Under the pieces are notes generated by a model that worked only from the letters and a program-made list of their open reading frames with translations, had not been told where the DNA came from and ran no database searches. A stretch of DNA of 33,940 nt from Granulosicoccus sp. GTDB taxonomy: Bacteria; Pseudomonadota; Gammaproteobacteria; Granulosicoccales; Granulosicoccaceae. Shown here piece by piece: positions 18,295 to 33,940 of this stretch; the first letter of the stretch is position 1, and the number at the start of each line of letters is the position of its first letter. The translations under genes were made by a program, and so were the position numbers. Location: the NCBI GenBank assembly GCA_013002205.1, contig JABDKN010000071.1:1-33940 (forward strand), read 5' to 3'.

Positions 18295-18316
18295 GAGCCT
18301 GCGAACTCCCAGGCTC
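18295..18316. repeat. Hairpin overlapping the matB stop codon
   Basis: Perfect 7-bp stem, GAGCCTG (18295-18301) and CAGGCTC (18310-18316), with an 8-nt loop, directly at the end of the matPQMAB transcript. With the hairpin at 18257 it makes a tandem 3' structure. Confidence 0.4.
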
Positions 18317-19838: not shown

Positions 19839-19888
19839 TGCGTTTGCTCGCCAATCTCCTGCCTGCTCTGGTTGTTCATAGTGATACT

Positions 19889-21241
19889 TCAGGCTCGCTT
19901 GCGCACACGACGTGTTTTATCCAGCAGTGCACTCACCTCGGACGAGACGATGACCGTTTGATCATTGGCATAGGCTTCATGATTATCCTCGACCCTGTCC
20001 AGGTCGTAAAGATAGCTGACCATGACACCGGCAGATTGCGCCAGGCCCTTCTTGTACACATCGGCGGCAGGCAACACATGATCCAGACTGGCACCATTGC
20101 CCAGATGAAAACGGGCAACGGGATCCAGAGGCCAGTTGTCCTCACGTTTCCTGTCTCGAAGAAAATAGGCAACCAGAAACTGCAGTTGCTCAGCTTCATC
20201 GGCGTGCAACTCGATCGTGTCCTGCGTCGACACACGGCGCGCCGTTTCCAATGCCTGGACGATTCGCGAATGCATGCCATCCGATTCGCCTATGCCCTCG
20301 GCAGACTGATCGTCCACGCTGTTCACCCAGCGCATGAATCCGGGAACCGGTGACAGGGTGCGGAATGTTTCCAGTCCGGGCAATTCTCTCGATAATTCCC
20401 TGGCAACCTGCTTGATCAGGAAATTGCCGAATGAGACCCCCGCCAGTCCTGACTGGCAATTGGATATGGAGTAGAACACTGCCACTGTCGCATTGGCCGC
20501 TGGCAGGATGTCGCGATGTGTGGACAACACATCGCGGATGCTTGCGGGACTTGAACGGGTCAGGGCAACTTCGACGAATATCAGCGGTTCATCGAGCATG
20601 GCCGGATGGAAGAATGCGAAGCAGCGGCGATCATCCGGTTCCAGTCGACTGCGCAACGCCGTCCAGCTGTTGATCGCGTGAACAGCCTCATAGGCAATGA
20701 TTTTTTCAAGGATATTGGCCGGGCTGTGCCAGTCGATCTCCCGCAGCACCAGAAAACCCTGATTGAACCAGGAACGGAACAGGTGCTGGAAATCGACGTC
20801 GATGCGACGCAGGGCTGGATGTTCCCGACAGGCCTCGAGCAGCAGGGCACGCATCTGTACCAGCTCATTGGTAGCGCCCGGCACCTGGTTCAGTCGGCGG
20901 AACAATTCCTGGCGACGCGGTTCGACGCATTCCATCAGCACAGACAGGTTGTCGGCGTTCTTTTCCCTGGCATAGAGTTGCGCCGCCCCGACTGCGTGCT
21001 CCGCATCGATATCGAAACGATCGGCCAGCATGAGAAAGAAGGCGATCTGTTCTTCGCTGCCAGCTGCAGCAAACCGGTTCAGCACACCGCGAGCCAGCCT
21101 GTTACCGGACATTTCGCCACTTTGTGACAGCAAGGCATCGCACAGCTCGGCCAGCGAGCCGTCACCGGCACCCTCCGGCTGCTGCTCCTGGCGAATGAAG
21201 ACCGAGCTCAACAATTCTGACAGGTATCTGATTCGACTCAC
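19889..21241 (-). CDS. matA: Malonyl-CoA decarboxylase
   Basis: A 450-aa enzyme converting malonyl-CoA to acetyl-CoA and CO2, giving carbon from malonate. The N-terminal helical domain includes ADRFDIDAEHAVGAA and ALRRIDVDFQHLFRSWFNQGFLVLREIDW. The catalytic acetyltransferase-like domain includes CFAFFHPAMLDEPLIFVEVAL, YSISNCQSGLAGVSFGNFLIKQVA, LSPVPGFMRW and, near the end, SYLYDLDRVEDNHEAY. I prefer the GTG at 21241, with GGAAG upstream, which leaves a 40-nt gap after matM. The open frame extends to 21325 but would overlap matM by 44 nt with an unrelated-looking sequence. Confidence 0.92.
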   Translation of the reverse strand: MSRIRYLSELLSSVFIRQEQQPEGAGDGSLAELCDALLSQSGEMSGNRLARGVLNRFAAAGSEEQIAFFLMLADRFDIDAEHAVGAAQLYAREKNADNLSVLMECVEPRRQELFRRLNQVPGATNELVQMRALLLEACREHPALRRIDVDFQHLFRSWFNQGFLVLREIDWHSPANILEKIIAYEAVHAINSWTALRSRLEPDDRRCFAFFHPAMLDEPLIFVEVALTRSSPASIRDVLSTHRDILPAANATVAVFYSISNCQSGLAGVSFGNFLIKQVARELSRELPGLETFRTLSPVPGFMRWVNSVDDQSAEGIGESDGMHSRIVQALETARRVSTQDTIELHADEAEQLQFLVAYFLRDRKREDNWPLDPVARFHLGNGASLDHVLPAADVYKKGLAQSAGVMVSYLYDLDRVEDNHEAYANDQTVIVSSEVSALLDKTRRVRKRA

Positions 21242-21281
21242 TCTGTTTCGCTTCCGTTGATGCTGGGAACCACTGCACCGA

Positions 21282-22601
21282 TCATACCGCCTGCCCCATG
21301 ACCATGGCAGGCAGCCACGTGGCAAGTCCCGGAAACACGCACAGGATCACAATGGCAATGACCATGCAGGCCACGTAGGGCAAGGAGCCCAGCAGGATGG
21401 TCTTCAAGGGAATGTCGGGCGCGATGCCGTTGATCACGTACAGATTCAGACCCACTGGCGGTGATATCAGGCCAATCTCCATGTTGATGGTCAGTATCAC
21501 TGCGAACCAGTACGGATCGAATCCTGCCGAGGTAATGATAGGCAGAAGAATCGGGGCAGCCATCAGAATGACCGCCACGGGCGGCAGAAAAAAACCCGCA
21601 ATGAGCAGAAACAGGTTGACCATACCCATCAATACCCAGCGGTTTACGTCCAGCGTGCCGATATAGGTGGCAATGGATTGCGTGATGCTGAGACTGGATA
21701 ACATGTATGAAAACACACCGGCCGCGGCAATGATGAACAGGATCATGACGCTTTCGCGGGTGGAGTCGCGCAGCACCACCCACAGCGATGTTGGACTCCA
21801 GAGACGATAGATGATCACGGCGATGAGAAGACACAGCAAGGCACCCACTGCTGCGGTCTCGGAAGGCGTGGCGATTCCGCCGTACATTGCATACAGCACA
21901 CCGATGATGATAAGAATGAACGGCAACACCCTGGGCAGGATCTCCAGGCGCTCCCTCCAGGTATAGAGTTTTGCCTCGAGGGCACCCTTGCCACCTTGCT
22001 GGCGCCACGTGCTGTAGATGGACCAGGCCATGAACAGTATCACCAGCAGCGCACCGGGAAGAACACCGGCCAGGAACAAACGACCGATGGAGGTCTCGGT
22101 GGCAATGCCGTAGACGATCATCGTCACCGAGGGAGGGATCAATATGCCAAGCGTGCCCCCGGCGGCAATCGAGCCCGCTGCCACACTGTCCGGATAGCCC
22201 CGCTTGCGCATCTCGGGTATACCCATCTTGCCAATCGCTGCACAGGTGGCAGGTGAGGATCCCGACATGGCCGCAAACAGCGAACAGGCACCCAGATTGG
22301 AAATCACCAGACCGCCTGGCACACGGGTCAGCCAGCGATCCAGCGCTTCATACAGGTCTGCACCTGCCCGGGTCGAGGAAATGGCGGCACCCATGATGAT
22401 GAACATCGGAATGGACAACAGCGCGAAGCTGTCCAACTTGCCAAAAAAGATCTCCGGCATCAGTTCCAGGGAGCGCATACCGTCGAAAAGCAGCAGAAAG
22501 ACCGCAGAGACGATCAACAGACCGGTGGCCACCGCCACGCCGGAAAACAGCACAAGTATGGTAACGATGGCCACGATTGCACCGAGCAGCAAGGGATCCA
22601 T
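21282..22601 (-). CDS. matM: TRAP transporter large permease (DctM-type), malonate uptake
   Basis: A 439-aa multi-spanning protein with about 12 hydrophobic segments. Signatures of DctM are GAAISSTRAGADLYEALDRW, LGACSLFAAMSGSSPATCAAIG, AGGTLGILIPPSVTMIVYG, ATPSETAAVGA and the C-terminal EIGLISPPVGLNLYVING. It couples sodium or proton entry to uptake of a solute delivered by MatP. Its ATG overlaps the matQ stop by 1 nt (TGATG). The order P-Q-M-A-B matches the malonate operon described for Sinorhizobium meliloti. Confidence 0.93.
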   Translation of the reverse strand: MDPLLLGAIVAIVTILVLFSGVAVATGLLIVSAVFLLLFDGMRSLELMPEIFFGKLDSFALLSIPMFIIMGAAISSTRAGADLYEALDRWLTRVPGGLVISNLGACSLFAAMSGSSPATCAAIGKMGIPEMRKRGYPDSVAAGSIAAGGTLGILIPPSVTMIVYGIATETSIGRLFLAGVLPGALLVILFMAWSIYSTWRQQGGKGALEAKLYTWRERLEILPRVLPFILIIIGVLYAMYGGIATPSETAAVGALLCLLIAVIIYRLWSPTSLWVVLRDSTRESVMILFIIAAAGVFSYMLSSLSITQSIATYIGTLDVNRWVLMGMVNLFLLIAGFFLPPVAVILMAAPILLPIITSAGFDPYWFAVILTINMEIGLISPPVGLNLYVINGIAPDIPLKTILLGSLPYVACMVIAIVILCVFPGLATWLPAMVMGQAV

Positions 22602-23140
22602 CAGTGGCCGGCCTCGGGGAACGGATCATCGACGTCCGTGATCGTGGCGACCAGGTCTGCGCCGAGCTGCAACAGGAAGATACCGAATCCGAGTGGCATG
22701 GTCAGGTAGGGAATCCACAAGGGTGGCCCCCAGACCGTATCGGACGTCCAGCCCCTGACCCAGGCGACGTGCCAGAGCTCGGCGGAGTAGAAGAGCATCA
22801 CGCCGATCACCCCCATGGCGACCATCAGCGTCAGACAGGCCAGCGCTTTGCGCATGAACGCAGGTAGCAGCCGTGGCAGCAGGTCCACGTTGACATGGCC
22901 GCGCAGCAGTTGCACGTACGGCAGACCGATCAGGGTGGCGCCGATCATCAGGTAAATGACCGATTCAGTCTGCCACACGGTCGACGCATTGTTGATCTTA
23001 CGCACCCAGATCATCTGGCAGGTCAACAGCACGGCAGCAAGGATCATGCTCGCGGACAGCGCACCACAGAGTCCGGACAGCCCCGCCACGGCCCGCATCC
23101 ACAATGGGCGAGCCGGCGAGCGGGAGCGTTCAGGCATCAT
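22601..23140 (-). CDS. matQ: TRAP transporter small permease (DctQ-type), malonate uptake
   Basis: A 179-aa protein with four hydrophobic segments, starting after a basic N-terminus (RSRSPARPLWMRAV). CQMIWVRKINNASTVWQTESVIYLMIGATLIGLPY and LLRGHVNVDLLPRLLP are the conserved DctQ stretches. It forms the membrane complex with the large permease. It overlaps matP by 4 nt (ATGA) and matM by 1 nt. Confidence 0.93.
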   Translation of the reverse strand: MMPERSRSPARPLWMRAVAGLSGLCGALSASMILAAVLLTCQMIWVRKINNASTVWQTESVIYLMIGATLIGLPYVQLLRGHVNVDLLPRLLPAFMRKALACLTLMVAMGVIGVMLFYSAELWHVAWVRGWTSDTVWGPPLWIPYLTMPLGFGIFLLQLGADLVATITDVDDPFPEAGH

Positions 23141-24126
23141 TCAACTGCGAGTGCCATGTCCAGCAATGCCTGACCCTCAGGCAGATCAGCAATGAAGGCG
23201 GCATAGGACGACTCCCGCGCCACTGCACGCCAGGCGTCAAACTGCTCTGGTGACATCTCGGCGATATCCACACCCGCATCGCGGAATACCTGCACCGAGG
23301 CTGCGTCTTCCTTCTTCGCCTCGTCCAGGTAGAATGCCTGCGCCTCGGCTGACGCATCCATCAGCGCAGCCTGCTGTGACTCACTGAGTCCTTCAAAGGT
23401 GCTTTTGTTCATCAGCAGTGGCTGATACATGAACCACAGGGCTACATCACCTGCCGGCGTATAACATTTGACCTGTTCGTACAGGCGATAGGATACGAAG
23501 GATGAGGATGAGGTGTTGGCTGCGTCGAGCACCCCGGTCTGCATGGCGTTGTAAATTTCGCTGGATGCCATCGATGCAATCGACGCGCCGGCCGATGCCA
23601 GCATCTGTTCGAATGCCTTGCCCGCCGCGCGTGTCTGCAGCCCTGCCACATCCTCCGGTGCGGTAATGCATTTCTCCTTACCGGCAAATCCCCCTGCCAG
23701 ATACCCGTGAACCAGCACCATGACGTCATCCTCGGCCATGATCTCTTCTATTCGGTCCATGAACGGTGATTCATTGAGTCTGGCGGCGTGATCGTGATTC
23801 TTGACGAGGCCAGGCATCAGCGTCAGGTTGTAGGCAGGTTGCTGGCCGCCGGCATAGGAAAGCGGCAGTACCGTCATATCCAGCTGCCCGCGCGACAACG
23901 GCTTATATTGTTCGCGAGGTGGAAACAACGATTTTGACGGGAAGATGGTGATCTCCAGATCGACGTCAGCGGCAGCGACGCCATCGGCCACCATCTGTGC
24001 GACCTTGTGGCGTATATCCTGAGTCGACCACTGGTGCGACAGTCGCAGTTCGGCAGCGTTGGCGGCCTGCCCGGCCAGCATGGTAGATACCAGCAGAGTG
24101 GCGACAGTAATTCCTCGACGTTTCAT
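23137..24126 (-). CDS. matP: TRAP transporter solute-binding protein (DctP-type), malonate
   Basis: A 329-aa periplasmic binding protein. I start at 24126 because MKRRGITVATLLVSTML begins a good signal peptide (cleavage after ANA, about residue 24) and GGATGAG precedes it. The frame upstream is open to 24306 but would run through the operators and into matR. DctP features are LRLSHQWSTQDIRHK, PREQYKPLSRGQLDM, AEDVAGLQTRAAG (with the conserved Arg that binds the carboxylate) and SEIYNAMQTGVLDAANTSSSSF. It is the first gene of matPQMAB, divergent from matR. Confidence 0.93.
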   Translation of the reverse strand: MKRRGITVATLLVSTMLAGQAANAAELRLSHQWSTQDIRHKVAQMVADGVAAADVDLEITIFPSKSLFPPREQYKPLSRGQLDMTVLPLSYAGGQQPAYNLTLMPGLVKNHDHAARLNESPFMDRIEEIMAEDDVMVLVHGYLAGGFAGKEKCITAPEDVAGLQTRAAGKAFEQMLASAGASIASMASSEIYNAMQTGVLDAANTSSSSFVSYRLYEQVKCYTPAGDVALWFMYQPLLMNKSTFEGLSESQQAALMDASAEAQAFYLDEAKKEDAASVQVFRDAGVDIAEMSPEQFDAWRAVARESSYAAFIADLPEGQALLDMALAVE

Positions 24127-24161
24127 ATGCTCATCCGGTGTGTGATGTGATAAGGCTGTCT

Positions 24162-24171
24162 TTGTATCCAA
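24162..24171. promoter_or_regulatory. Second MatR-type operator (TTGTATCCAA)
   Basis: Matches TTGTATACAA at 9 of 10 positions. Its centre is 21 bp, about two helical turns, from the perfect site at 24182-24193. It also overlaps the likely matR -35 hexamer (TTGTAT). Confidence 0.6.
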
Positions 24172-24191
24172 CAGCTCACTGATTGTATACA
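24162..24191 (+). promoter_or_regulatory. Candidate matR promoter
   Basis: TTGTAT (24162-24167), 18 bp, then TATACA (24186-24191), reading toward matR. The two operator copies cover the -35 and -10, so regulator binding would repress. The promoter of the opposite matP unit would share the same site. Confidence 0.4.
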
Positions 24192-24193
24192 AT
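24182..24193. promoter_or_regulatory. MatR operator, perfect palindrome ATTGTATACAAT
   Basis: A 12-bp perfect palindrome between the divergent matP and matR genes. Its core, TTGTATACAA, is the binding sequence I recall for MatR of Rhizobium leguminosarum bv. trifolii, which supports naming both the regulator and the operon. Confidence 0.78.
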
Positions 24194-24225
24194 GACTGGC
24201 CTGTGCAATGCAAGTCCCGTGAACG

Positions 24226-24870
24226 ATGAATCGCATCAGAGAGCAAATTGAGCAAGCCATCCTGATGGGTGAATTTCCCAGCGGCGCGCGCCTGGATGAA
24301 ACGCAACTGGCCAGTCGCTTTGCCGTGTCACGAACGCCCGTGCGTGAAGCACTCAAGCAACTGGTTGCTTCCGGACTGCTGGAACACAGACCCAACCGTG
24401 GCGTATTCGTGCGCACGCCCTCTGTACAGGAACTGCTGGAAATGTTCGAAGTCATGGCCGAACTGGAAGCCTTTTGCGGCTCTCTGGCTGCACGCCGGGT
24501 TAATGATGAGGACATGCTGTCGCTGCGTGAACTCACTGCAGCGTGTGAACGGGCAATGCAATCCGGTGACTGTGATCGCTATTACCGCGCCAACGAACAG
24601 CTGCACAACGAGGTGTACCGGCTGTCGGGCAATCACTACCTGGCACGTCAGGCCGCGGCCCTGCACAAGCGCCTGCAACCCTACCGCCGCCTGCAGCTCC
24701 GCGTACCCTACCGTATGCGTCAGTCGATGAACGAACATCGCATCATCGTCGACGCCATCTGTCGCGGCGATGCCGACGCCGCGTCCAGTGCGATTCGCGC
24801 ACATATTGCGATTCAAGGTGAAAAATTCAATGACCTGGTCGCAGACCTGCAGCTTTGCGCGGCGGTGTGA
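24226..24870 (+). CDS. matR: GntR/FCD-family regulator of malonate genes
   Basis: A 214-aa regulator. The N-terminal winged helix spans residues about 1-65 (IREQIEQAILMGEFPSGARL, FAVSRTPVREALKQL, GLLEHRPNRGVFV). The C-terminal all-helical FCD ligand domain has the expected metal/ligand residues (YYRANEQLHNEVYRLSGN, NEHRIIVDAICRGDADAA). It is divergent from matP, with two TTGTATACAA-type sites between them. Family knowledge and placement suggest it represses or activates matPQMAB in response to malonate. The ATG at 24226 has only a weak ribosome-binding site. Confidence 0.92.
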   Translation: MNRIREQIEQAILMGEFPSGARLDETQLASRFAVSRTPVREALKQLVASGLLEHRPNRGVFVRTPSVQELLEMFEVMAELEAFCGSLAARRVNDEDMLSLRELTAACERAMQSGDCDRYYRANEQLHNEVYRLSGNHYLARQAAALHKRLQPYRRLQLRVPYRMRQSMNEHRIIVDAICRGDADAASSAIRAHIAIQGEKFNDLVADLQLCAAV

Positions 24871-24875
24871 GAGGT

Positions 24876-25754
24876 CTATGAGCGCACATCACGGCTTGCC
24901 AGACGACGTTCCAGCCAGCGTACTGCTGCCGAGACGATCAGTATCAATACCAGGTACTCCAGTATCAACACTGTATAGGTTTCCAGCGGTCGGTACTCAG
25001 CCGTGACCAGTTCATTGGCACGTCGAGTCAGTTCTTCCATGCCGATGACGGACACCAGCGACGACATCTTGAGCATGTAGACGAGCTGATTACCCAAGGG
25101 TGGAAGCACTCGCCTGAGTGCTTGCGGCAACACCACGTAACGCATCCGATCGATGTACCCCAAGCCGAGAGAGTCTGAGGCCTCGAGCTGGCCACGATCG
25201 ATCGACTGGATACCTGCGCGAAAGATTTCCGCCTCGAATGCACTGTCGGACAACGCCAGCGCCAGCACCCCTGCCCAGAAGACATTGATGGCAATTCCCA
25301 TCATGATCGGCAGGCCGTAGTAGACCCAGAGGATGAGGACCAGTAGCGGAACCGCCCTGATGATTTCGACGTAGACTTTATTGAAGCCGCGAGCGATGGG
25401 GTTGCGGGACAGGGCAGGCAAGGCGACCAGCAAGCCGATCACCACCGAAATGACAATCGCTGTCATCGACAGCAGTATCGTGTACTTCAAGCCACCGAGC
25501 ATGAATTTGAGGTTGGCCTGACCAGCCGGTGTCAGCGGCGATACCACATACCATTGCAATTGACCGGCACAGCCAGTGAGCAGCAGCGACAGTGCCAGCA
25601 GGCCCGGCCACAGCCGAAGCCGAAGCCGAAGCCGAAGCCACAGCCGAAGCGGAACGCGGGCGCGGTCCCTGGCGCGGACGCCGTCGCGGACGCCGTCGCG
25701 GGCATAGTCGCGGCCGCGGTCGCGATGGCCGGACACTTTCAGCATGGCAGTCAT
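24876..25754 (-). CDS. Polar amino-acid ABC transporter permease with unusual Arg-rich N-terminal extension
   Basis: A 292-aa HisM/GltK-type permease. After about residue 80 it is ordinary: GGLKYTILLSMTAIVIS, EIIRAVPLLVLILWVYYGLP, and the EAA loop EASDSLGLGYIDRMRYVVLPQALRRVLPP. Just before lies LLALSLLLTGCAGQ, a lipobox-like hydrophobic segment that I recall from related permeases. The first 50 residues are odd: HRDRGRDYARDGVRDGV and an LRLWLRLRLR stretch, encoded by hexamer and 12-mer repeats. I take ATG 25754, which shares one base with the ATPase stop (TGATG); no later start avoids the repeats. It probably works with the divergent binding-protein-like gene. Confidence 0.85.
   Translation of the reverse strand: MTAMLKVSGHRDRGRDYARDGVRDGVRARDRARVPLRLWLRLRLRLRLWPGLLALSLLLTGCAGQLQWYVVSPLTPAGQANLKFMLGGLKYTILLSMTAIVISVVIGLLVALPALSRNPIARGFNKVYVEIIRAVPLLVLILWVYYGLPIMMGIAINVFWAGVLALALSDSAFEAEIFRAGIQSIDRGQLEASDSLGLGYIDRMRYVVLPQALRRVLPPLGNQLVYMLKMSSLVSVIGMEELTRRANELVTAEYRPLETYTVLILEYLVLILIVSAAVRWLERRLASRDVRS
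25608..25649. repeat. Hexanucleotide repeat inside the permease gene
   Basis: Seven 6-bp units in a row: CCACAG, four CCGAAG, CCACAG, CCGAAG. On the minus strand they encode alternating Leu-Arg/Leu-Trp. Unit number changes would keep the reading frame. Confidence 0.85.
25675..25698. repeat. Two tandem 12-mers (CGGACGCCGTCG) inside the permease gene
   Basis: Two exact copies in direct tandem, encoding the RDGV RDGV repeat on the minus strand; they precede the hexamer array in the protein. Confidence 0.85.
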
Positions 25755-26494
25755 CAATGTTGCAGGATCTGTTGCAGGAAGGTGCGGCCGCGCTCGGTTC
25801 GGGGACTGGAAAAGAACTCCGCTGGCGATGACTGCTCCACGACACGACCGCCGTCCATGAACACCATGGTGTCGGCAACCTGCCGGGCGAATCCCATCTC
25901 ATGAGTAACCACCATCATGGTCATACCGGTATCCGCCAGCTCGACCATGACATCCAGTACCTCGGAAATCATTTCAGGATCCAGTGCGGATGTGGGTTCG
26001 TCAAACAGCATGATCTTCGGCTCCATGCACAGACTGCGGGCAATCGCCACACGCTGTTGTTGCCCACCGGAGAGTTGACCGGGAAATTTGTCCGCCTGTT
26101 CCGGAATTCTCACGCGTTCCAGATAGCGGCGAGCCAACCCGGTTGCTTCTTCGCGCGACAGCTTGCGTGCCCGCATCGGTCCCAGTGTGAGGTTATCCAG
26201 CACGGACAGATGCGGAAACAGATTAAACTGCTGAAAGACCATACCGACATCCGTGCGGGCTGAGCGCAATGCCTTTCTGTTCCCGCCCAGCTCGACTCCG
26301 TTGACGAATACCTGGCCGGCATCGTGTCGCTCAAGCTGATTGACGCAGCGAATCAAGGTGGATTTACCCGAACCTGAAGGACCGCAGATGACCATGCGCT
26401 CACCCACTGCCACGCTCAGGGAGACGTCGCTCAGTGCCTGGAAATCACCGAAGAACTTGGCCAGATTGAGAATTCTGATGATGGGTTCGGACAT
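25754..26494 (-). CDS. Polar amino-acid ABC transporter ATP-binding protein
   Basis: A 246-aa ATPase of the GlnQ/HisP type. Walker A is GPSGSGKST (38-46), the Q-loop VFQQFNLFPHL (86-96), the signature LSGGQQQR (141-148), Walker B IMLFDEPTSALDP, and the switch His in VTHEMGFARQ. The start at 26494 (MSEPIIRIL) is chosen by alignment with the family; upstream codons look non-coding. It has no obvious Shine-Dalgarno. It overlaps the permease gene and is divergent from the binding-protein-like gene, with a 97-nt shared promoter region. Confidence 0.94.
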   Translation of the reverse strand: MSEPIIRILNLAKFFGDFQALSDVSLSVAVGERMVICGPSGSGKSTLIRCVNQLERHDAGQVFVNGVELGGNRKALRSARTDVGMVFQQFNLFPHLSVLDNLTLGPMRARKLSREEATGLARRYLERVRIPEQADKFPGQLSGGQQQRVAIARSLCMEPKIMLFDEPTSALDPEMISEVLDVMVELADTGMTMMVVTHEMGFARQVADTMVFMDGGRVVEQSSPAEFFSSPRTERGRTFLQQILQH

Positions 26495-26591
26495 GGATGG
26501 AGTGTAGCTCAGTCCTGAGACTCGCAAAAACCAACCGCCGATAGTGTGACAGTGGGTATACTCCGAGCTATCACACGCGCGAGTCGACGTC
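26495..26591. promoter_or_regulatory. Divergent promoter region between the ABC ATPase and the PheC-like gene
   Basis: It contains GTGTGA (26544-26549) and TCACAC (26571-26576) as an inverted repeat around TATACT (26557-26562), which looks like a -10 reading right. No convincing -35 is seen, so activation by a bound protein is plausible. Confidence 0.3.
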
Positions 26592-27413
26592 ATGTTGCAG
26601 ACCATCCACAACACGCTCTATCGCAGGGTAAACATTCCGTTCATCGCGGCGTTGTCTGCCCTGGCATTGTCGACGATGCCGGTGGTGCCTGCTGCGGCAG
26701 CGGATTCGATGCTCACCGATATCCTGGCAAACGGCAAGCTCAAGGTGGGCACTACCGGCGACTGGGATCCGATGACACTCAAGGACCCTGCCACCAACAG
26801 TTACAAAGGCTATGACATCGATGTGGTGACCCAGCTGGCGCAAGATCTGGAAGTGGAGCTTGAACTGGTTCCAACTGACTGGAAAACACTGGTCAATGGT
26901 GTCACCGCTGGCAAGTATCACATGACCGGCAGTGCTTCAGTCAGTGCAAGTCGAGCCAAGGCAGCCGGTTATACCGAAAGCTACTTCTCCCTGAATACGG
27001 TACCGCTGACGCTCCAGAAGAATGCGGAACGCTTTCGCGACTGGGCAGATCTGGACAAGCCGGAGGTTACGGTCGCCGCCACCCTGGGAACCACACAGGA
27101 ACAACAGGTAAAGAGCTTCTTTCCCAGCGCACAGCATAAGATCATCGAGGCGCCTGCCCGGGATTTCCAGGAAGTGCTTGCCGGGCGCGCCGATGCGCAT
27201 ATAACCTCGAATGTGGAAGCATACAAACTGGTGGAGAAGTACCCCACTTTGATGGTGGTGCCTGTCAGCCAGGCCCGGGCGCGCACCCCGATTGCCATGC
27301 TGGTTCCGCAGGACGATCAGATCTGGATCAATTACCTGAACACCTGGATCAAACTGCAGAAAGAGCGCGGATTCTTCGATGAACTTGCCATCAAGTGGCA
27401 ACTCGCGAACTAA
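26592..27413 (+). CDS. Periplasmic binding-protein-fold protein: amino-acid ABC binding protein or cyclohexadienyl dehydratase (PheC-like)
   Basis: A 273-aa exported protein (signal peptide cleaved near AAAA, about residue 36). The fold is SBP type 3: LTDILANGKLKVGTTGDWDPM, YKGYDIDVVTQLAQDL. It can be read in line with Pseudomonas aeruginosa PheC. PheC has LDRILESGVLRVATTGDY where this has LTDILANGKLKVGTTGDW. Glu209 (SNVEAYKL) falls on the catalytic Glu173 of PheC (DAIEARLQ). PheC makes phenylpyruvate from prephenate in the periplasm. The next gene encodes an aromatic/aspartate aminotransferase, which fits that role. The divergent genes encode an amino-acid ABC permease and ATPase, which fits a binding-protein role. 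I cannot choose from sequence alone. Confidence 0.8.
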   Translation: MLQTIHNTLYRRVNIPFIAALSALALSTMPVVPAAAADSMLTDILANGKLKVGTTGDWDPMTLKDPATNSYKGYDIDVVTQLAQDLEVELELVPTDWKTLVNGVTAGKYHMTGSASVSASRAKAAGYTESYFSLNTVPLTLQKNAERFRDWADLDKPEVTVAATLGTTQEQQVKSFFPSAQHKIIEAPARDFQEVLAGRADAHITSNVEAYKLVEKYPTLMVVPVSQARARTPIAMLVPQDDQIWINYLNTWIKLQKERGFFDELAIKWQLAN

Positions 27414-27439
27414 ACACTCAGGTAAACGAGCACAAGCAT

Positions 27440-28630
27440 ATGTTTGAAGCACTACAGGAACCCAGGCCCGATGCCATCCTCGGTCTGATGGCGGCGTTCA
27501 GGGCTGACACCCGCACCGACAAACTCGACCTGGGCGTCGGCATCTACAAGGATTCGGCAGGCGAGACCCCGGTCATGCGGGCCGTCAAATCGGCTGAACG
27601 GAAATTGCTTGAGTCGCAGCAAACCAAGGCCTATGTGGCACCGATCGGCAGCCCCGCTTTCTGCGCTGCGATGATTACCCAGGTGTTTGGCAAGGAGGCT
27701 GACCTGACACGCCTGCGTGCCGCACAATCGGTGGGCGGCAGTGGTGCATTGCGGGTACTGGCTGACCTGATGAAACAGGGACGACCGGAGGCCGATATGT
27801 GGGTGTCCGATCCGACATGGCCAAACCACGTACCGCTGCTCAGTGCGGCAGGCTACACACTGCACAGCTATCCGTACTACGATGCAGCCAGCGGCCAGGT
27901 CGATGTCGAGGCGATGCTGGCAGCGCTGGGCAAGGCTAAACGCGGCGACATCGTGGTCTTGCACGGCTGCTGCCACAATCCCACGGGTGCCGACCTGACG
28001 ATCCAGGACTGGTCGCGCGTCATCACCGTGCTGCAGGACAACGATCTGTTCCCGCTGGTCGACCTGGCTTACCAGGGATTCGGTGACGGACTGGAGGAGG
28101 ATGCAGCGGCCGTGCGGCTGATGGCCAGCAAGCTGCCCGAGATGGTCGTTGCCGCCAGTTGCTCGAAAAATCTGGGACTGTATCGCGAGCGCGTCGGTGC
28201 TGCGATGTTGCTGGCCAGGAACGAGTCGGAAGCCACCCGGGCCCTGGGCCGACTGGGCGGTGTCATTCGTGCCAACTATTCCATGCCACCAGACCATGGC
28301 GCGAATGCAACCGAGATCGTCTTGAGTGATGCTGCGCTGAATGCGCAGTGGCGGGAGGAACTGGAAGCCATGCGGTGTCGCATGGTCACTTTGCGCCAGG
28401 CCTTCAGTGAGGCCATGCGCAAGCGCTCCAATTCCGATCGATTCGACTACATCACCCGACAGAAAGGCATGTTCAGTCGTCTGCCGCTGTCGACGGCTCA
28501 GCTGGACGCGCTGCGCGACGATTACGGTATCTACATCGTCGGTGATGGACGTATCAATGTCGCCGGACTGCCCGAGCAGGGCATGGAAAAACTGGCGGAT
28601 GCCATCTGCTGCGTACTGGCAGACCACTAG
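27440..28630 (+). CDS. Aromatic-amino-acid/aspartate aminotransferase (class I)
   Basis: A 396-aa PLP enzyme of the AspC/TyrB subgroup; start 27440 gives exactly the subgroup's usual length (MFEALQEPRPDAILGL). An upstream in-frame start at 27395 would overlap the previous gene. LGVGIYKDSAGETPVM, GGSGALRVLADL, HGCCHNPTGADL (Asn180), DLAYQGFGDG (Tyr211), the PLP lysine Lys243 in SCSKNLGLYRERVG, and GRINVAGL near the C-terminus are all intact. It transfers amino groups between glutamate and phenylpyruvate, hydroxyphenylpyruvate or oxaloacetate. It follows the PheC-like gene by 26 nt and is probably cotranscribed. Confidence 0.92.
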   Translation: MFEALQEPRPDAILGLMAAFRADTRTDKLDLGVGIYKDSAGETPVMRAVKSAERKLLESQQTKAYVAPIGSPAFCAAMITQVFGKEADLTRLRAAQSVGGSGALRVLADLMKQGRPEADMWVSDPTWPNHVPLLSAAGYTLHSYPYYDAASGQVDVEAMLAALGKAKRGDIVVLHGCCHNPTGADLTIQDWSRVITVLQDNDLFPLVDLAYQGFGDGLEEDAAAVRLMASKLPEMVVAASCSKNLGLYRERVGAAMLLARNESEATRALGRLGGVIRANYSMPPDHGANATEIVLSDAALNAQWREELEAMRCRMVTLRQAFSEAMRKRSNSDRFDYITRQKGMFSRLPLSTAQLDALRDDYGIYIVGDGRINVAGLPEQGMEKLADAICCVLADH

Positions 28631-28645
28631 CCTGGATCACCAGGC
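28630..28645. repeat. Small hairpin at the aminotransferase stop
   Basis: GCCTGG, ATCA loop, CCAGGC: a perfect 6-bp stem directly behind the stop codon. No T tract follows. Confidence 0.35.
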
Positions 28646-28681
28646 AGTTGCAACGGCATCTGCTCCGAGGGTGGACGTGTT

Positions 28682-28693
28682 TGTGATATCACA
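28682..28693. promoter_or_regulatory. Perfect palindrome TGTGATATCACA upstream of tctC
   Basis: A 12-bp perfect palindrome immediately upstream of the candidate -35 at 28704. Its arms match a CRP-like half site, but the spacing (2 nt instead of 6) excludes a normal CRP site. A GntR- or similar-type regulator is possible; no such gene lies beside it. Confidence 0.45.
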
Positions 28694-28703
28694 GCACAAT
28701 GAG

Positions 28704-28732
28704 TTGTCCTATTGATCAACAACGCCGATAAT
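28704..28732 (+). promoter_or_regulatory. Candidate promoter of the tctCBA operon
   Basis: TTGTCC (28704-28709), 17 bp, GATAAT (28727-28732), reading right. The palindrome TTGATCAA (28712-28719) lies in the spacer. This implies a leader of about 100 nt before tctC. Confidence 0.5.
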
Positions 28733-28799
28733 GCCCCGGTACGATCGGCGTAAGGCCGCTCGACATCGCGACTGTGACCTCGAGGATACCGTCCCGTAG

Positions 28800-29813
28800 T
28801 TGGTTGACCATCGCGATTCTACGAACCCATTGGAGAGAGAATGGAATAAGACTCATACGACAAGACTGGCTGCAGCCGTATTACTGAGCCTGGGCCTGAG
28901 CAGTGGCCTGCAGGCGGCCGAATGTATAGCACCAGCCAATCCTGGCGGTGGTTGGGACTTCACCTGCCGCTCCATCGGCAAGATCATGTACGACATCAAG
29001 GCGGTGGATTCCCCGATCCAGGTGACCAATATGGCCGGGGCCGGTGGCGGACTTGCCTACACGCACGTTGTCACCGAACGCGCCAACGATGAAGAGTTGA
29101 TCGTGGCGGCCTCCTCTGCCACGGCCACACGACTTGCACAGAATGCCTACGGGGGCATGACTGCAGATCAGGTCCGCTTCCTGGGTGCCATTGGCGCCGA
29201 TCCAGGCGTCATCGTCGTGGCCAAGGACTCACCGTTCCAGTCGCTCACCGACCTGATCGATGCGGTCAAGGCCGATCCTGGCCAGGTGGCGTTTGCCGGC
29301 GGGTCGGCAGTCGGTGGATTCGATCACCTGAAAGTACTCATGGCACTGGGTCGAGCGGGCTTCGACGACATCACCAAGGTCAAATATATTGGCGTGGATG
29401 GCGGTGCTGATGCGATCACGCAGACGATCGGCGGTTTCGCTCAGGCAATGACTGGCGATATATCAGAGATAGTCGGCTTCCTGAAATCCGGTGACGTCCG
29501 GGTACTGGCGTCCTTTACCGAAGAGCGGCTCCCGGGCGAATTCAATGACATCCCCACCGCCAGGGAGCAGGGTATCGATGTGGTGGCGGTCAACTGGCGT
29601 GGCCTGTATGTGCCCAAGGATATTTCCGATGAAGCCTATAACAAGTGGTCAGATGCACTGGCCCAGGTTGCAGCTTCCGATGAATGGGCCGAGCAGATGC
29701 AGGCCAATGGTCTGGCACCGTTCACCAAGGTAGGGACTGAGTTCCAGGGGTATGTCGATGGCGTAATCGAGGAAATCAGGACGCTCTCGAAGGAAATCGG
29801 CGTCATTCAGTAA
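28800..29813 (+). CDS. tctC: Tripartite tricarboxylate transporter substrate-binding protein (start codon problematic)
   Basis: A TctC/Bug-family periplasmic binding protein of about 320 aa. NKTHTTRLAAAVLLSLGL then LQA is a signal peptide. ANPGGGWDFTCRSIGKIM, NMAGAGGGLAYTHV, VRFLGAIGADPGVIVVAKDSPF and AREQGIDVVAVNWRGLYVP are family features. The frame is open from a TTG at 28800, with another TTG at 28830; neither has a good ribosome-binding site. A perfect GGAGAGAGA followed by ATG sits at 28832-28843 but is one base out of frame (it reads ATG GAA TAA). Removing the extra G would give ATG-AAT-AAG, the expected start. I report the open frame; the true start is unresolved. Confidence 0.8.
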   Translation: MVDHRDSTNPLEREWNKTHTTRLAAAVLLSLGLSSGLQAAECIAPANPGGGWDFTCRSIGKIMYDIKAVDSPIQVTNMAGAGGGLAYTHVVTERANDEELIVAASSATATRLAQNAYGGMTADQVRFLGAIGADPGVIVVAKDSPFQSLTDLIDAVKADPGQVAFAGGSAVGGFDHLKVLMALGRAGFDDITKVKYIGVDGGADAITQTIGGFAQAMTGDISEIVGFLKSGDVRVLASFTEERLPGEFNDIPTAREQGIDVVAVNWRGLYVPKDISDEAYNKWSDALAQVAASDEWAEQMQANGLAPFTKVGTEFQGYVDGVIEEIRTLSKEIGVIQ

Positions 29814-29821
29814 GCGCCTGT

Positions 29822-29839
29822 ATTCCCGCCCGGGGGAAT
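29822..29839. repeat. Stem-loop between tctC and tctB
   Basis: ATTCCC, loop GCCCGG, GGGAAT: a perfect 6-bp stem in the 106-nt tctC-tctB gap. Such structures often set higher binding-protein than permease mRNA levels by stabilising the upstream segment. Confidence 0.5.
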
Positions 29840-29919
29840 GCGTCTGCAGTGGCCCGGAGCTGTGCGGTGGTATCGGGCCCCTGCATCCAGAGTGATCCGT
29901 TTAACGTGAGTGCACGACT

Positions 29920-30357
29920 ATGAGTGATCGACTGTTCGGTCTGATTGTCCTGATCGGATCGGTAGCCTATTTCATGGCAGCCGCCAGTATTCCTACCGGT
30001 TTTCTGGTCGACCCGGTCGGTCCCAAACTGTTTCCACGCCTGGTCAGTGGCCTGGCTGCGTTATGCGCATTGTTGATTCTCATCAGGCCCGATGCTGAGC
30101 CTGACTGGCCTGGTACCGGCACCTGGCTCAGATTGCTGCTGGCACTGGCAGTATTGGTGGCCTACGCCTACACGCTCAAACCACTGGGCTTCCTCATCCC
30201 CACCGCCGTGGCATCCGGGGTTCTGAGCTTCCAGATCCGATCGCGTCTGCTGCCTGCCGTACTGACCGGGCTGGGCCTGTCCGTCGGGCTGTTCATACTG
30301 TTCAGGTTCGTACTCGGACTCAGTCTGTTTGCCATACCGCGTACCTGGATGAGCTGA
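29920..30357 (+). CDS. tctB: Tripartite tricarboxylate transporter small membrane subunit
   Basis: A 145-aa protein with four hydrophobic segments (about 6-24, 44-58, 68-90, 110-135). VDPVGPKLFPRLVSG near the N-terminus is the TctB signature. It partners TctA in secondary uptake of carboxylates delivered by TctC. It is followed 10 nt later by tctA. Confidence 0.9.
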   Translation: MSDRLFGLIVLIGSVAYFMAAASIPTGFLVDPVGPKLFPRLVSGLAALCALLILIRPDAEPDWPGTGTWLRLLLALAVLVAYAYTLKPLGFLIPTAVASGVLSFQIRSRLLPAVLTGLGLSVGLFILFRFVLGLSLFAIPRTWMS

Positions 30358-30367
30358 GCGCAACGTC

Positions 30368-31873
30368 ATGGAAACTTTTTCACTGCTGGCTCAGGGCTTT
30401 GCCGTTGCCCTGACCCCGACCACGTTGGCACTGGCCGTCGCCGGCTGCATCATTGGCACCATGGTGGGCGCTCTTCCCGGTCTGGGTCCTTCCAATGGCG
30501 TGGCCATTCTCATACCGCTGGCTTTTTCACTGGGCCTGGACGCCACAGAGGCACTGATCCTGATGACCAGTGTGTACTACGGGGCCATGTATCGTGGTCG
30601 TATCTCCTCGATCCTGTTGAATATACCCGGGGATGAACCGGCGCTGATGACCACACTCGATGGTTATCCGATGGCCAGGGACGGACGCGCCAGCGATGCC
30701 CTGGTACTCTCGGGTGTGGCCTCGTTCGTCGGTGCCCTGCTTGCCACTTTCGGCCTGATGCTGCTGGCCCCCGTACTGGCCAGGGTCGCTTACCTGTTCG
30801 GTCCGGCCGAGTATTTTGCCCTGTATCTACTGGCCTTCTCCACACTGGGAGGCATAGCGTCCGACAACCAGCGTAAAGCAGCTCTGGCGGCCTGTATGGG
30901 ACTGGCGATCGCCATGATCGGCCTGGACAATTCCACCGGTATGAGTCGTTTTACCGGTGGCAACCTGCACCTGATGGACGGCGTCGATTTCCTGGTGGCC
31001 ATCGTGGGCCTGTTTGCCGTCTCTGAGGTCTTCATCTTCATCGAAAGCCATGGCCGCTCCTCCGCGATCGGCGTAAAGCTGGAATCGATCACCATCCCGT
31101 TCAAGGACATCGTGAATACCTTCGGTACCATGTTGCGTTCCACGGTGATCGGATTCGTTGCCGGGATACTGCCGGGCGCCGGTGCGTCGCTCGGCAGTTT
31201 TCTGGCCTACATGAGCGAGAAAGCATGGGTTCGGGACAACAGCCAATTCGGCAAGGGTGATCCGCGGGGTGTGGCAGCTCCGGAGGCGGGCAACAAGGCC
31301 GCAGCAGGCGGTGCACTGGTACCGATGCTCACTCTCGGCGTTCCAGGTTCCAGAACGACAGCAGTTCTGCTGGCTTTGCTGATGACATTGAACATCACGC
31401 CAGGACCCCTGCAATTCACCGAGCGCCCGGAAGTGGTCTGGGGGCTGATGGCCGCACTGCTGATTGCCAATATTGTACTGCTGATCCTCAACGTACCGAT
31501 GGTGCGTATTTTCGTCAAAGTTCTCAGTGTTCCACCCTGGATTTTACTGCCAGGTGCCTGCATGGTTTCGTTCGTCGGCATCTATTCCCTCTCAGGCAGC
31601 TATTTCGACCTGGTTCTGATGATTGTTTTCGGGCTACTGGGCTACTTCCTGCGCAAACTGCACGTGCCTACCGTGCCGATCATTCTGGGTATACTGCTGG
31701 GGAATCACATGGAAGACAGCTTGCGCCGGGCCATGGTCATCTCCGGTGGAGACTGGAAGTACCTGTTTCAGTCTGGCATATCCATTGGTTTCTGGATCGC
31801 CGCAATTATCGGATTTGTCGCACCGGTGTTTCTGCGTAGATTTCTCAAAACCCCGACACCGCATACAACGTGA
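30368..31873 (+). CDS. tctA: Tripartite tricarboxylate transporter large membrane subunit
   Basis: A 501-aa permease with about 12 transmembrane segments. The N-terminal GTMVGALPGLGPSNGVAILIPLAF and YYGAMYRGRISSILLNIPGDEPALMTTLDGYPMA are diagnostic. A second motif, GILPGAGASLGSFLAY, and GVPGSRTTAVLLALLM follow. Its stop overlaps the GTG start of the next gene by 4 nt (GTGA), so the downstream pair is part of the same operon. The substrate is unknown; the family carries citrate, tartrate, phthalate, glutamate and others. Confidence 0.94.
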   Translation: METFSLLAQGFAVALTPTTLALAVAGCIIGTMVGALPGLGPSNGVAILIPLAFSLGLDATEALILMTSVYYGAMYRGRISSILLNIPGDEPALMTTLDGYPMARDGRASDALVLSGVASFVGALLATFGLMLLAPVLARVAYLFGPAEYFALYLLAFSTLGGIASDNQRKAALAACMGLAIAMIGLDNSTGMSRFTGGNLHLMDGVDFLVAIVGLFAVSEVFIFIESHGRSSAIGVKLESITIPFKDIVNTFGTMLRSTVIGFVAGILPGAGASLGSFLAYMSEKAWVRDNSQFGKGDPRGVAAPEAGNKAAAGGALVPMLTLGVPGSRTTAVLLALLMTLNITPGPLQFTERPEVVWGLMAALLIANIVLLILNVPMVRIFVKVLSVPPWILLPGACMVSFVGIYSLSGSYFDLVLMIVFGLLGYFLRKLHVPTVPIILGILLGNHMEDSLRRAMVISGGDWKYLFQSGISIGFWIAAIIGFVAPVFLRRFLKTPTPHTT

Positions 31874-33243
31874 ATAAGATTATCCGGGTACTGGTTCCCT
31901 CAGGGGTCCTTGGACTGGGCTTCGACCCGAAGGCACTGGCAGACGCCGTAGCTCTGAAGCCGGATGTCATTTGTATCGACGGCGGATCCACGGACAGTGG
32001 TCCAAACTCACTGGGTACCAGCACCTCGAAATACTCCCGCGCCGTATGCCTGCGGGAATGGCGTCAGCTCATGCGCGCACGAGCGCAACTGGATGTCCCC
32101 CTGATCATCGGCTCTGCCGGTACCTGTGGCACGGATGACATGGTGGACTGGATGTTCGACATCACCCGGGAAATCGCAGCCGGTGAAGAACGCCAGGGCA
32201 ACAGGCCCCTCAAGGTTGCCAGGCTCTATACCGAGCAGGACAACACGATTGTCGCCTGCGCCTTTGCACAGCAGAGAATCAAGCCACTGGAACCGCAGCT
32301 CCCCCTGGATGCAGACACAATAGACAGCTGTGAGCACATCGTGGCATTGGCCGGTGCCGAGCAGATTCAGGCGGCATTGGCCACGGGTGCCGATATCATC
32401 ATCGCCGGGCGCACGACCGATACTGCGGTGGTGAGCGCCTTGCCGCTCATGCGCCGCTGTCACGCAGGTGCGGCATGGCATGCTGCCAAGATCGCCGAAT
32501 GCGGCGCCTTGTGTTCAACACACCCGACCAGTGGTGTCATCATCGTCGATATCGACCAGTCAGGCTTCACGATATACCCCACTGCGGCCGGTGCACGGTG
32601 CACACCTCAGTCGGTGTCTGCGCACATGCTCTACGAAAATACTGACCCGTTCATCCTGTATGAACCCGGTGGACACCTGGACGTCCGCCACACACACTAT
32701 GAAGCCCAGGGGGATGCGCAGGTGAGGGTTACCGGTTCTCAGTGGGTGCCGACAAGCCCGTATACCCTGAAACTGGAGGGTGCGCGACTGGTCGGATATC
32801 AGACTATTCTTCTGGCACTGCTGCGGCATCCTCATTACGTCACGCATGCAAAAGCCTGGGTAAATCGACTGACCGGTTTTCTCAAACGGGAAATCAGCGT
32901 AAGTCTCGAGCTGCCTGAAGACCGTTATGAGATCGAATTTCGTCTCATTGGTGTAGACGCTACACTGGGTAAACTGGAAACCCGGTCTGCGGAAGGTGTG
33001 GAGACGGGCGTACTGGTTATCGTCACCGCCAGTTCTCAGGCAGAGGCCGACGAGATTGGCAAGCTCATCAATCCCTTCCTGCTGCACTATCCATTGACCG
33101 ATGAGGAACCCCTGCCCACATTCGCCTTCCCGTATTCGCCAGCGCAGACATCACGAGGCCCACTCTTCGGGTTCTGTCTCAACCATGTACTTCAACTGGA
33201 CGACCCGATGAGCGCCGTCAGACTCGAAGTGACGACTCTATGA
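31870..33243 (+). CDS. AtuA-like (DUF1446) protein
   Basis: A 457-aa protein of the acyclic-terpene-utilisation AtuA N-terminal family: VLVPSGVLGLGFD, DVICIDGGSTDSGPNSLG, IIGSAGTCGTDDMVDW, HIVALAGAEQIQAALATGADIIIAGRTTDTAV, and ILYEPGGHLDVRHTHYE. The C-terminal part from about 330 (RYEIEFRLIGVDATLG) resembles the AtuA-like ferredoxin-fold region. AtuA is needed for terpenoid (citronellol) breakdown in Pseudomonas, but the reaction of this group is not clear to me. The GTG start overlaps tctA by 4 nt and the stop overlaps the DUF4387 gene as ATGA, so the three are translationally coupled. Confidence 0.88.
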   Translation: MNKIIRVLVPSGVLGLGFDPKALADAVALKPDVICIDGGSTDSGPNSLGTSTSKYSRAVCLREWRQLMRARAQLDVPLIIGSAGTCGTDDMVDWMFDITREIAAGEERQGNRPLKVARLYTEQDNTIVACAFAQQRIKPLEPQLPLDADTIDSCEHIVALAGAEQIQAALATGADIIIAGRTTDTAVVSALPLMRRCHAGAAWHAAKIAECGALCSTHPTSGVIIVDIDQSGFTIYPTAAGARCTPQSVSAHMLYENTDPFILYEPGGHLDVRHTHYEAQGDAQVRVTGSQWVPTSPYTLKLEGARLVGYQTILLALLRHPHYVTHAKAWVNRLTGFLKREISVSLELPEDRYEIEFRLIGVDATLGKLETRSAEGVETGVLVIVTASSQAEADEIGKLINPFLLHYPLTDEEPLPTFAFPYSPAQTSRGPLFGFCLNHVLQLDDPMSAVRLEVTTL

Positions 33244-33548
33244 AGGTCATCGACGTGGTGAGCAGTGTCCGGTCTAAGAACGCGGGTCCGTTCTGGGTCA
33301 CGATCGACATATTCTGCGGATCTGTACCTGCGTTCAACAGGATCGTCGCAGGACTGACGACCCGTCAGGTGGGCGACGCGTTGGGTCAACCCGAGGCCGC
33401 CGTCAAACGGTTCGATATCGCTTCACTGCACGTCGTAAAGTTCAGCGTTCATCGTCCTGTCGTCCAGGGGCACCCTGCGGACCGCGACCTGCACGGCGCG
33501 CAATGGGCCGTGCTGATCGAAGAACTGGTGTTACCTGACCAGCAGTAG
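33240..33548 (+). CDS. DUF4387 protein, partner of the AtuA-like gene
   Basis: A 102-aa protein: VSSVRSKNAGPFWVTIDIFC at the start, FDIASLHVVKFSVHRPVVQG and a C-terminal GAQWAVLIEELVL. This matches my recollection of DUF4387, which typically sits next to, or is fused to, AtuA-like proteins. It probably forms a complex with the upstream product. It is the last gene of tctC-B-A-atuA-like-DUF4387. No function is established. Confidence 0.85.
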   Translation: MKVIDVVSSVRSKNAGPFWVTIDIFCGSVPAFNRIVAGLTTRQVGDALGQPEAAVKRFDIASLHVVKFSVHRPVVQGHPADRDLHGAQWAVLIEELVLPDQQ

Positions 33549-33573
33549 CATCAAGCCTGAGAACTGCGTCTCA

Positions 33574-33601
33574 TTGATTAGTACGCCAAACCGCCGATAA
33601 C
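33574..33601 (+). promoter_or_regulatory. Candidate promoter for the right-edge gene
   Basis: TTGATT (33574-33579), 16 bp, GATAAC (33596-33601). The predicted start of transcription would coincide with the ATG at 33608, implying a leaderless message or a downstream start. Confidence 0.3.
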
Positions 33602-33607
33602 ACAGGC

Positions 33608-33940
33608 ATGTCCGGAGTACCCCCTGCAATCCAAGTGAGACGATACGTCAGCGCCCTGCACCCGATTTGGGTGTGGGCGCTGTGCGTATCGCTGTGGTGG
33701 GCTCCGCACACAGTCCAGGGTGCCATCTACGCCTGTCCGACCGACGAAGGGTCCACTGTTTTCCAGGACAGGCCCTGCCCGCTGAAACCCCGGAAAGTGG
33801 CCAAGGCCAAACTCATCCAGCGTTTACCATTTGGTATTCACGCCTCCTGGTTCGAGGTGCCTGGCCAGGCAGAGGGGCGCGCTTTCTGTGATCGCCGCGG
33901 TTGTGAGTGCGGGGCCGTGGAGCGCCGGCATGAGGGCTCC
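33608..33940 (+). CDS. Secreted DUF4124-like protein (partial, C-terminus off the right edge)
   Basis: Open from ATG 33608 to the window edge (111 codons). A hydrophobic segment, WVWALCVSLWWAPHTVQG (residues about 22-39), serves as signal peptide. It is followed by AIYACPTDEGSTVFQDRPC, the DUF4124 N-terminal pattern with paired cysteines, and a second Cys cluster, FCDRRGCECG. No Shine-Dalgarno precedes the ATG; a GTG at 33635 is an alternative start. DUF4124 proteins are exported and of unknown role. It is a separate unit from the tct operon, 59 nt after the DUF4387 stop. Confidence 0.65.
   Translation, partial: MSGVPPAIQVRRYVSALHPIWVWALCVSLWWAPHTVQGAIYACPTDEGSTVFQDRPCPLKPRKVAKAKLIQRLPFGIHASWFEVPGQAEGRAFCDRRGCECGAVERRHEGS

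Follow-up and report, generated by a model that had tools for sequence, protein, structure and literature searches.

A 33,940-nt stretch of DNA from Granulosicoccus sp. (hereafter the window), which is one whole contig (JABDKN010000071.1, assembly GCA_013002205.1), carries at positions 28800-33548 a five-gene operon that couples a tripartite tricarboxylate transporter (Tct) to an AtuA-like gene and a DUF4387 gene. Judged by sequence, this is a small operon of marine bacteria in which a citrate-type importer is combined with a two-part enzyme on a separate branch of the citramalate-lyase family. We propose that it serves the uptake and carbon-carbon (C-C) cleavage of one organic acid, a substituted malate or citrate-like hydroxy acid, a reading to which sequence comparison and structural models lend a probability of about 0.6. 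The genes of the operon are as follows.

28800..29813, + strand: tctC, periplasmic solute-binding protein of the tripartite tricarboxylate transporter (PF03401, 76.9 bits)
29920..30357, + strand: tctB, small membrane subunit (PF07331, 69.3 bits)
30368..31873, + strand: tctA, large membrane subunit (PF01970, 484.5 bits)
31870..33243, + strand: AtuA-family large subunit, 457 aa, with a predicted CmlA-like fold and the window-type signature described below (PF07287, 82.5 bits)
33240..33548, + strand: DUF4387 small subunit, 102 aa, with a predicted CmlB-like fold and an RSKNAGP motif (PF14330, 73.0 bits)

All five Pfam scores exceed Pfam's cut-offs. The open reading frames (ORFs), the Pfam matches and the sequence itself bear out the five genes, their order and place, and both 4-nt overlaps given by an earlier first-pass annotation of this DNA, namely GTGA between tctA and the AtuA-like gene (31870-31873) and ATGA between the AtuA-like and DUF4387 genes (33240-33243). 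The transporter has its full set of subunits, TctC, TctB and TctA, encoded consecutively on the + strand, and the PF07287 gene, the one match to that family in the window's genome, is directly followed by the PF14330 gene. The tctC start at 28800 is a guess: upstream of the signal peptide (28800-28860) there is no in-frame ATG, only TTG at 28800 and TTG at 28830, either of which may be the true start. Among solved structures TctC best matches 25hk_A (E = 1.3e-29), whose entry names no ligand; weaker matches include terephthalate-binding and Bug proteins, and the solved relatives are of the TctC/Bug type. Downstream of the operon, an ORF from 33608 runs past the contig end.

The first-pass annotation had regarded the chemistry of the AtuA-like/DUF4387 pair as unassigned and the operon as the window's best candidate for an undescribed system. 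Neither view is supported, since a homologous pair has been deposited as citramalate lyase (9erq and 9evf) and the window pair forms a new class in a family whose one solved member bears that name. In a sequence search of the PDB, each protein gave a single match: the AtuA-like protein to 9erq A, named citramalate lyase subunit cmlA (E = 2.1e-70), and the DUF4387 protein to 9erq B, named citramalate lyase subunit cmlB (E = 1.2e-4). AlphaFold2 models of the two proteins have mean predicted local distance difference test scores (pLDDT) of 90.8 and 94.1, respectively. The predicted fold of the AtuA-like protein matches 9evf A with a template modelling (TM) score of 0.93 (Z = 47.9), and that of the DUF4387 protein matches 9evf B with a TM score of 0.87; VIA-align rows other than 9evf reached Z values up to 8.7, mostly over residues about 307-434, and were not used. 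The fold and the invariant core of 9erq/9evf are thus present in the predicted models of the window pair. The homologous chains A and B occur together in one entry, both in 9erq and in 9evf, and the latter is titled as a complex of citramalate lyase, ADP and pyruvate.

The compared part of chain 9erq A is 91% identical to an Escherichia coli protein of the methylaspartate cluster, in which the CmlA homologue lies between the methylaspartate ammonia-lyase and DUF4387 genes, and which also contains glutamate mutase, a dicarboxylate/amino-acid symporter and class I fumarase. PMC4682846 reports a DUF1446 gene in the methylaspartate cluster and leaves the fate of (S)-citramalate open. Literature searches for 9erq/9evf returned unrelated matches only and no describing paper, a search for DUF4387 returned no paper, and in the search listings on citramalate lyase the protein family was absent apart from PMC4682846.

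The window pair belongs to a different class within this family. In an alignment of 137 family rows (duplicate rows included), a 17-residue core is identical in 130 rows, the solved protein among them. Eleven further positions are class-specific (43, 54, 85, 183, 185, 203, 257, 265, 311, 401 and 408 in window numbering). There the window type has S K T T T W N E Q N P, and the citramalate type has P F G Y P L K G R R G. These positions were picked on rows of this set; two loci collected before the positions were fixed but outside the alignment used to choose them, L199 and L200, have 11 and 6 window-type residues. Across the whole set, 103 rows have all eleven window-type residues and none of the opposite type, ten show the reverse, 15 resemble the window type, with 8 to 10 of its residues and no more than one of the opposite type, and nine fit neither class fully. 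The window pair matches the citramalate class at 0 of the 11 positions, and its large subunit is 34% identical to that of citramalate lyase. Consistently, loci added later (L203-L222), which serve as an outside test of the chosen positions, yielded six rows with 11/11 citramalate-type residues and one with 8/11, as well as six window-type rows with 7 to 11 matches (L203-L208). Eight rows from seven of these loci fall in neither class (28-33% identical to the window protein), and six of the seven loci adjoin ABC (ATP-binding cassette) transporter genes. A third AtuA-like group was seen here (L214 and L216-L220, 28-33% identical to the window), adjoining ABC ATPase genes and having core His204 replaced by Y or F.

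The same division was recovered in a tree, a quick one with a midpoint root and 104 rows, from which duplicates had been removed and, from L109 onwards, alternate rows among the close TctA-linked ones. The window falls in a 72-row group with a Shimodaira-Hasegawa-like approximate likelihood ratio test (SH-aLRT) support of 96, and 9erq_A in a separate 11-row group (SH-aLRT 99) made up of the ten citramalate-class rows and one long branch, L073. By these alignments the family splits into discrete classes distinguishable by 11 residues, and the window pair is not an orthologue of the 9erq/9evf enzyme. The first-pass annotation had named an activity already assigned to orthologous pairs as what would speak against its view; an activity has been assigned, but to a homologous pair of the other signature class with 34% identity, not to an orthologous one.

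The coupling of the pair to the transporter was surveyed in the best 80 of 576 confirmed GTDB matches, a set biased to near relatives. The DUF4387 gene follows the AtuA-like gene in 79 loci, the sole miss (L150) lying at a contig end. A TctA more than 60% identical to that of the window is encoded just ahead of the AtuA-like gene, in the same orientation, in 56 loci and elsewhere in the locus in two; the TctA relatives adjoining a pair are 66-93% identical to the window TctA. A different TctA (31-39%) is present in seven further loci, which, together with the pairing of L072 and L099 with other Tct lineages, speaks for a functional link between the pair and transporters of this type. The co-occurrence of pair and Tct and the order of the DUF4387 gene are more than chance. 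Conservation does not extend to the exact 4-nt overlap: an end in ATGA, GTGA or TTGA is seen for the AtuA ORF in 40 of 79 loci and for the TctA ORF in 20 of 58. Where Tct is adjacent and at least 7.5 kb of upstream DNA is available, 37 of 47 loci have a regulator trio of an SBP_bac_11 protein, a sensor kinase and a response regulator, in most loci divergent from tctC, at the place where the window has ABC transporter and aminotransferase genes instead. Gene clusters common to at least nine loci around the Tct version comprise the pair, Tct, the trio, the window's ABC ATPase and unassigned ORFs, several of them antisense to shared genes. No additional enzyme is conspicuous there, as would be expected if the products of the pair fed straight into central metabolism.

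The tie holds in 80 genomes of a single family, which we take for Rhodobacteraceae because one of them (G463) groups with named Rhodobacterales loci in the tree. TctA at 72% identity or more is encoded in 17 of these genomes, and in all 17 an AtuA-like gene (at least 53%) is adjacent; a sister TctA of 60-67% is found in 14 genomes, none with an AtuA-like gene. In one genome (G840, locus L199) the pair is present without the usual TctA. Eight sister loci (L193-L198, L201 and L202) have TctC and TctA without the pair, and six of them, all but L195 and L198, have the trio. In the window's genus, the AtuA-like gene occurs in 19 of 27 genomes; Tct adjoins the pair in ten of the 19 (in L066 it follows the AtuA-like gene), and in one the contig is cut inside the gene. 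As a separate observation, an AtuA-like match at G783:C1:172528-173867 lies in two overlapping frames, and the gene looks interrupted.

Gene neighbourhoods were compared between the classes at 119 window-class, 17 citramalate-class and 15 other loci, with collected proteins as queries (E 1e-15, within 6 kb), an approach that would overlook fumarases or transporters of other kinds. The cut-offs were at least six matches for the window class (L200 with 6 and L204 with 7 included) and at least seven for the citramalate class (L076 with 7 and L215 with 8 included); five untyped loci (L058, L070, L071, L084 and L119), six duplicated loci and the eight sister-TctA loci were left out. As loci were chosen by similarity to the window or by matches in sampled genomes, the proportions are biased. 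The window class has Tct at 84 loci and CitMHS at nine, and 0 of 119 match the fumarase, methylaspartate ammonia-lyase or glutamate mutase queries; two, L148 and L154, match the family III CoA-transferase query (CoA, coenzyme A). Its pairs keep company with TctCBA, with CitMHS, a 2-hydroxyacid dehydrogenase and aconitase-type subunits, or with major facilitator superfamily (MFS) or Fbp-type ABC genes. The second arrangement, with a D-isomer-specific dehydrogenase and both large and small aconitase-type subunits, is found at L083, L089, L203, L205 and L208; four of these share one order and are taken for Burkholderiales, and L083 is from another taxonomic class.

The citramalate class matches fumarase at four of its 17 loci, methylaspartate ammonia-lyase at two and glutamate mutase at two, and Tct or CitMHS at none. 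Five of the 17 carry fumarase or mesaconyl-CoA genes: L104 and L077 (glutamate mutase, methylaspartate ammonia-lyase and class I fumarase), L105 and L186 (fumarase), and L079 (two HpcH/HpaI lyases, CoA-transferases and mesaconyl-CoA hydratase). Some citramalate-class pairs are thus placed among genes whose pathway requires the cutting of a malate-type acid, in favour of the proposed C-C cleavage. The scanned neighbours at L095/L097 and L211 gave no relevant genes.

Two of these loci lie on plasmids. L105 (6980-15039 of a Klebsiella pneumoniae conjugative plasmid) combines a citramalate-class pair with aldehyde and alcohol dehydrogenases and fumarase, and 12 of 53 plasmid records with a match are from Klebsiella. 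L186, on a plasmid of Neorhizobium galegae from a Galega nodule (1-9201), encodes in one run an aldehyde dehydrogenase, an aminotransferase, agmatinase, a P450, an alcohol dehydrogenase, the pair and fumarase. Such a set would be consistent with a route in which a prenyl group is oxidised to mesaconate, which is then hydrated to citramalate and cleaved, and could be a breakdown route for galegine, a prenyl guanidine, via mesaconate and citramalate; a literature search for galegine with Neorhizobium galegae found no paper.

Taken as a lyase system, the operon would work as follows. TctC would capture the acid in the periplasm and TctBA would carry it inward, whereupon a heteromer of the AtuA-like and DUF4387 proteins would split a C-C bond to give a 2-oxo acid and a simple carboxylate, probably from a substrate that carries neither a CoA thioester nor an acyl carrier protein. 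Heteromer formation and the type of reaction are suggested by the named homologue and by the neighbourhoods, and the ADP in 9evf suggests that a nucleotide may be involved. A two-subunit lyase acting on an imported carboxylic acid, as the first-pass annotation had supposed, thus appears the best reading of sequences and models. The candidate substrates comprise (R)-citramalate, citrate-like acids and substituted malates. Citramalate itself appears an unlikely, though not negligible, substrate. Because the residues flanking the core have changed as a block relative to the citramalate class, malates with other substituents at position 2 or 3 and acids resembling citrate are jointly likelier. More tentatively, and with rather poor odds in our estimate, the window-type pair may be a mirror-image citramalate lyase, carrier-free, for (R)-configured substituted malates and with its own importer and sensor. 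Fumarase makes (S)-hydroxy acids, and aconitase/LeuCD-type enzymes and D-isomer-specific 2-hydroxyacid dehydrogenases handle (R)-hydroxy acids. The citramalate class lies by fumarase and the window class, where enzyme genes accompany it, by aconitase/LeuCD-type subunits and D-isomer-specific dehydrogenases, which, together with the block change around the shared core, would point to such a reversal.

Several observations weigh against the proposal of uptake and cleavage. The citramalate-lyase assignment of 9erq/9evf is based on the depositors' names, and the activity of window-type pairs is a prediction. With every one of the 11 class-specific positions altered, a change of reaction could have accompanied that of substrate. 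Twelve of the 17 citramalate-class loci show neither a fumarase nor a mesaconyl-CoA gene; one of the twelve, L215, has a TRAP (tripartite ATP-independent periplasmic) transporter, an amidase and a family III CoA-transferase. The dehydrogenase and aconitase-type genes at L083, L089, L203, L205 and L208 are unneeded for a simple one-step cleavage. Finally, the Tct coupling that the first-pass annotation wished to see surveyed proved conserved in one clade but not universal. No TctA is found in the available DNA at 15 of the 80 GTDB loci, seven of which have at least 3 kb on both sides and eight of which are cut within 3 kb on at least one side; likewise, eight of the 19 pairs of the genus have no Tct in the available DNA, two of them (L064 and L067) with less than 2 kb upstream. 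Six neighbours of the stand-alone pairs of the genus (L059-L064 and L067) were scanned, four at L060 and one each at L063 and L064, and gave no clue (HD-domain, transpeptidase, TPR, pseudouridine synthase, ApbE and zinc alcohol dehydrogenase proteins).

Two of the alternatives are special cases of the proposed uptake and cleavage. If the operon encoded a plain citramalate lyase, TctCBA would import (S)-citramalate and the pair would yield pyruvate and acetate, the reaction proposed for the E. coli enzyme. In its favour, citramalate lyase is the sole solved homologue with a name, one uptake system and one lyase would make a complete pathway, and citramalate is, by textbook chemistry, similar to citrate in shape. 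Yet the window pair differs from all ten citramalate-class rows at 11 of 11 signature positions and lies in another clade, and methylaspartate-pathway genes match at none of the 119 window-class loci vs. four, two and two of 17 for fumarase, methylaspartate ammonia-lyase and glutamate mutase. The changed residue block and the different gene company make plain (S)-citramalate less likely here than for the E. coli enzyme, and we consider this alternative improbable. The pair might instead be a CoA-free, citrate lyase-like enzyme for citrate or another tricarboxylate, with TctCBA as citrate importer. Tct and CitMHS are citrate-type transporter families, aconitase-type subunits adjoin some window-class pairs, and according to PMC10130141 tctABC of Ruegeria pomeroyi (SPO0184-0186) takes up citrate. 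An aerobe needs no dedicated lyase for citrate (textbook knowledge), and the sister TctA modules occur without the pair, as expected of a citrate importer, although the Ruegeria genes could not be placed among our loci; the citrate alternative is accordingly held to be doubtful.

The remaining alternatives dispense with a lyase. The pair might perform non-cleavage chemistry on the imported acid, such as ATP-dependent activation, hydration or isomerisation, which would accommodate both the ADP in 9evf, whose role its title does not explain, and the differing signature blocks of the classes. The fold and core held in common with the named lyase speak for cleavage, and we deem a non-lyase reaction unlikely. 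An AtuA-type role in acyclic terpene or citronellol breakdown, to which the Pfam name of PF07287 would point, is far less probable still and was rejected, in agreement with the first-pass annotation, which had thought it unlikely. No carboxylase family was found among the 17 window proteins scanned (16404-33940), a DUF4387 partner is present, and the chain has 457 aa vs. longer frames (458 to 843 aa, many about 600) for most weak matches, which we take for AtuA proper because of their length.

Upstream of the operon, the window carries the following genes.

18315-24870: malonate operon (malonyl-CoA synthase, malonyl-CoA decarboxylase, TRAP transporter DctM/DctQ/DctP and a divergent GntR regulator)
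24876-28630: amino-acid ABC transporter (permease, ATPase and binding protein) and an aminotransferase gene overlapping the binding-protein gene
26592..27413, + strand: amino-acid-type ABC solute-binding protein, role in the system uncertain (PF00497)
27395..28630, + strand: aromatic/aspartate-type aminotransferase, role in the system uncertain (NF006719, 528 bits)

The ABC binding-protein and aminotransferase genes adjoin the pair in eight of the 19 pairs of the genus, the window included; in L068 they lie on the other side of the AtuA-like gene, and in L058 there is no Tct between. Among the 80 GTDB loci no SBP3 or aminotransferase match was found except at L106-L108. Malonyl-CoA decarboxylase or synthase matches lie near the pair in L058, L068, L069 and L108, and similar genes occur in Shinella. 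Malonate was rejected as a pointer to the substrate: only one of the 80 GTDB loci, L108 (Granulosicoccus), has a close MatB match (67%), the MatB matches at L115, L158 and L177 are at 27-29%, and malonyl-CoA decarboxylase matches at none of the 80. The first-pass statement that no CoA ligase is present needs amendment, in that the window does encode one, the malonyl-CoA synthase of the malonate operon.

The proposal gives a likely chemistry to a widespread two-gene family labelled AtuA/DUF4387. Since citrate-type importers are linked to the window class both in Rhodobacterales and in the genus of the window, the operon should bring to light an organic acid that these bacteria import and that current annotation overlooks, and the class split makes the predicted substrates testable with a few purified enzymes.

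Compared with known systems, the large subunit shares its Pfam family, PF07287, with AtuA of the Pseudomonas acyclic terpene cluster, but terpene pathway genes were not seen among the scanned window proteins, and the AtuA chain is, from the weak matches, apparently longer. Near a terpene-type AtuA, an acyl-CoA carboxylase and other Atu genes would be expected. The CitDEF-type lyases and (S)-citramalyl-CoA lyase belong to unrelated families using an acyl carrier protein or a CoA thioester. If cleavage is correct, the window pair would resemble CitDEF-type citrate/citramalate lyase and (S)-citramalyl-CoA lyase, as described in PMC4682846 and PMC12290011, in the overall kind of cleavage. PMC12290011 also notes that a TctC gene, to which it assigns no function, lies close to an itaconate cluster. 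The transporter resembles TctABC of Ruegeria pomeroyi (SPO0184-0186; PMC10130141) in having all three subunits with the same Pfam families. In many relatives, genes for a solute-binding protein and a divergent two-component pair come before it; unlike the known TctABC, the window Tct is tied to a two-subunit enzyme, and the regulator trio is not beside it. The closest likeness is to CmlA/CmlB (9erq and 9evf), with which both subunits are homologous and share the predicted fold and the 17-residue core. As in the E. coli form, the two genes are adjacent and in the same order, but the window pair is coupled to TctCBA rather than to glutamate mutase, methylaspartate ammonia-lyase, a dicarboxylate/amino-acid symporter and fumarase.

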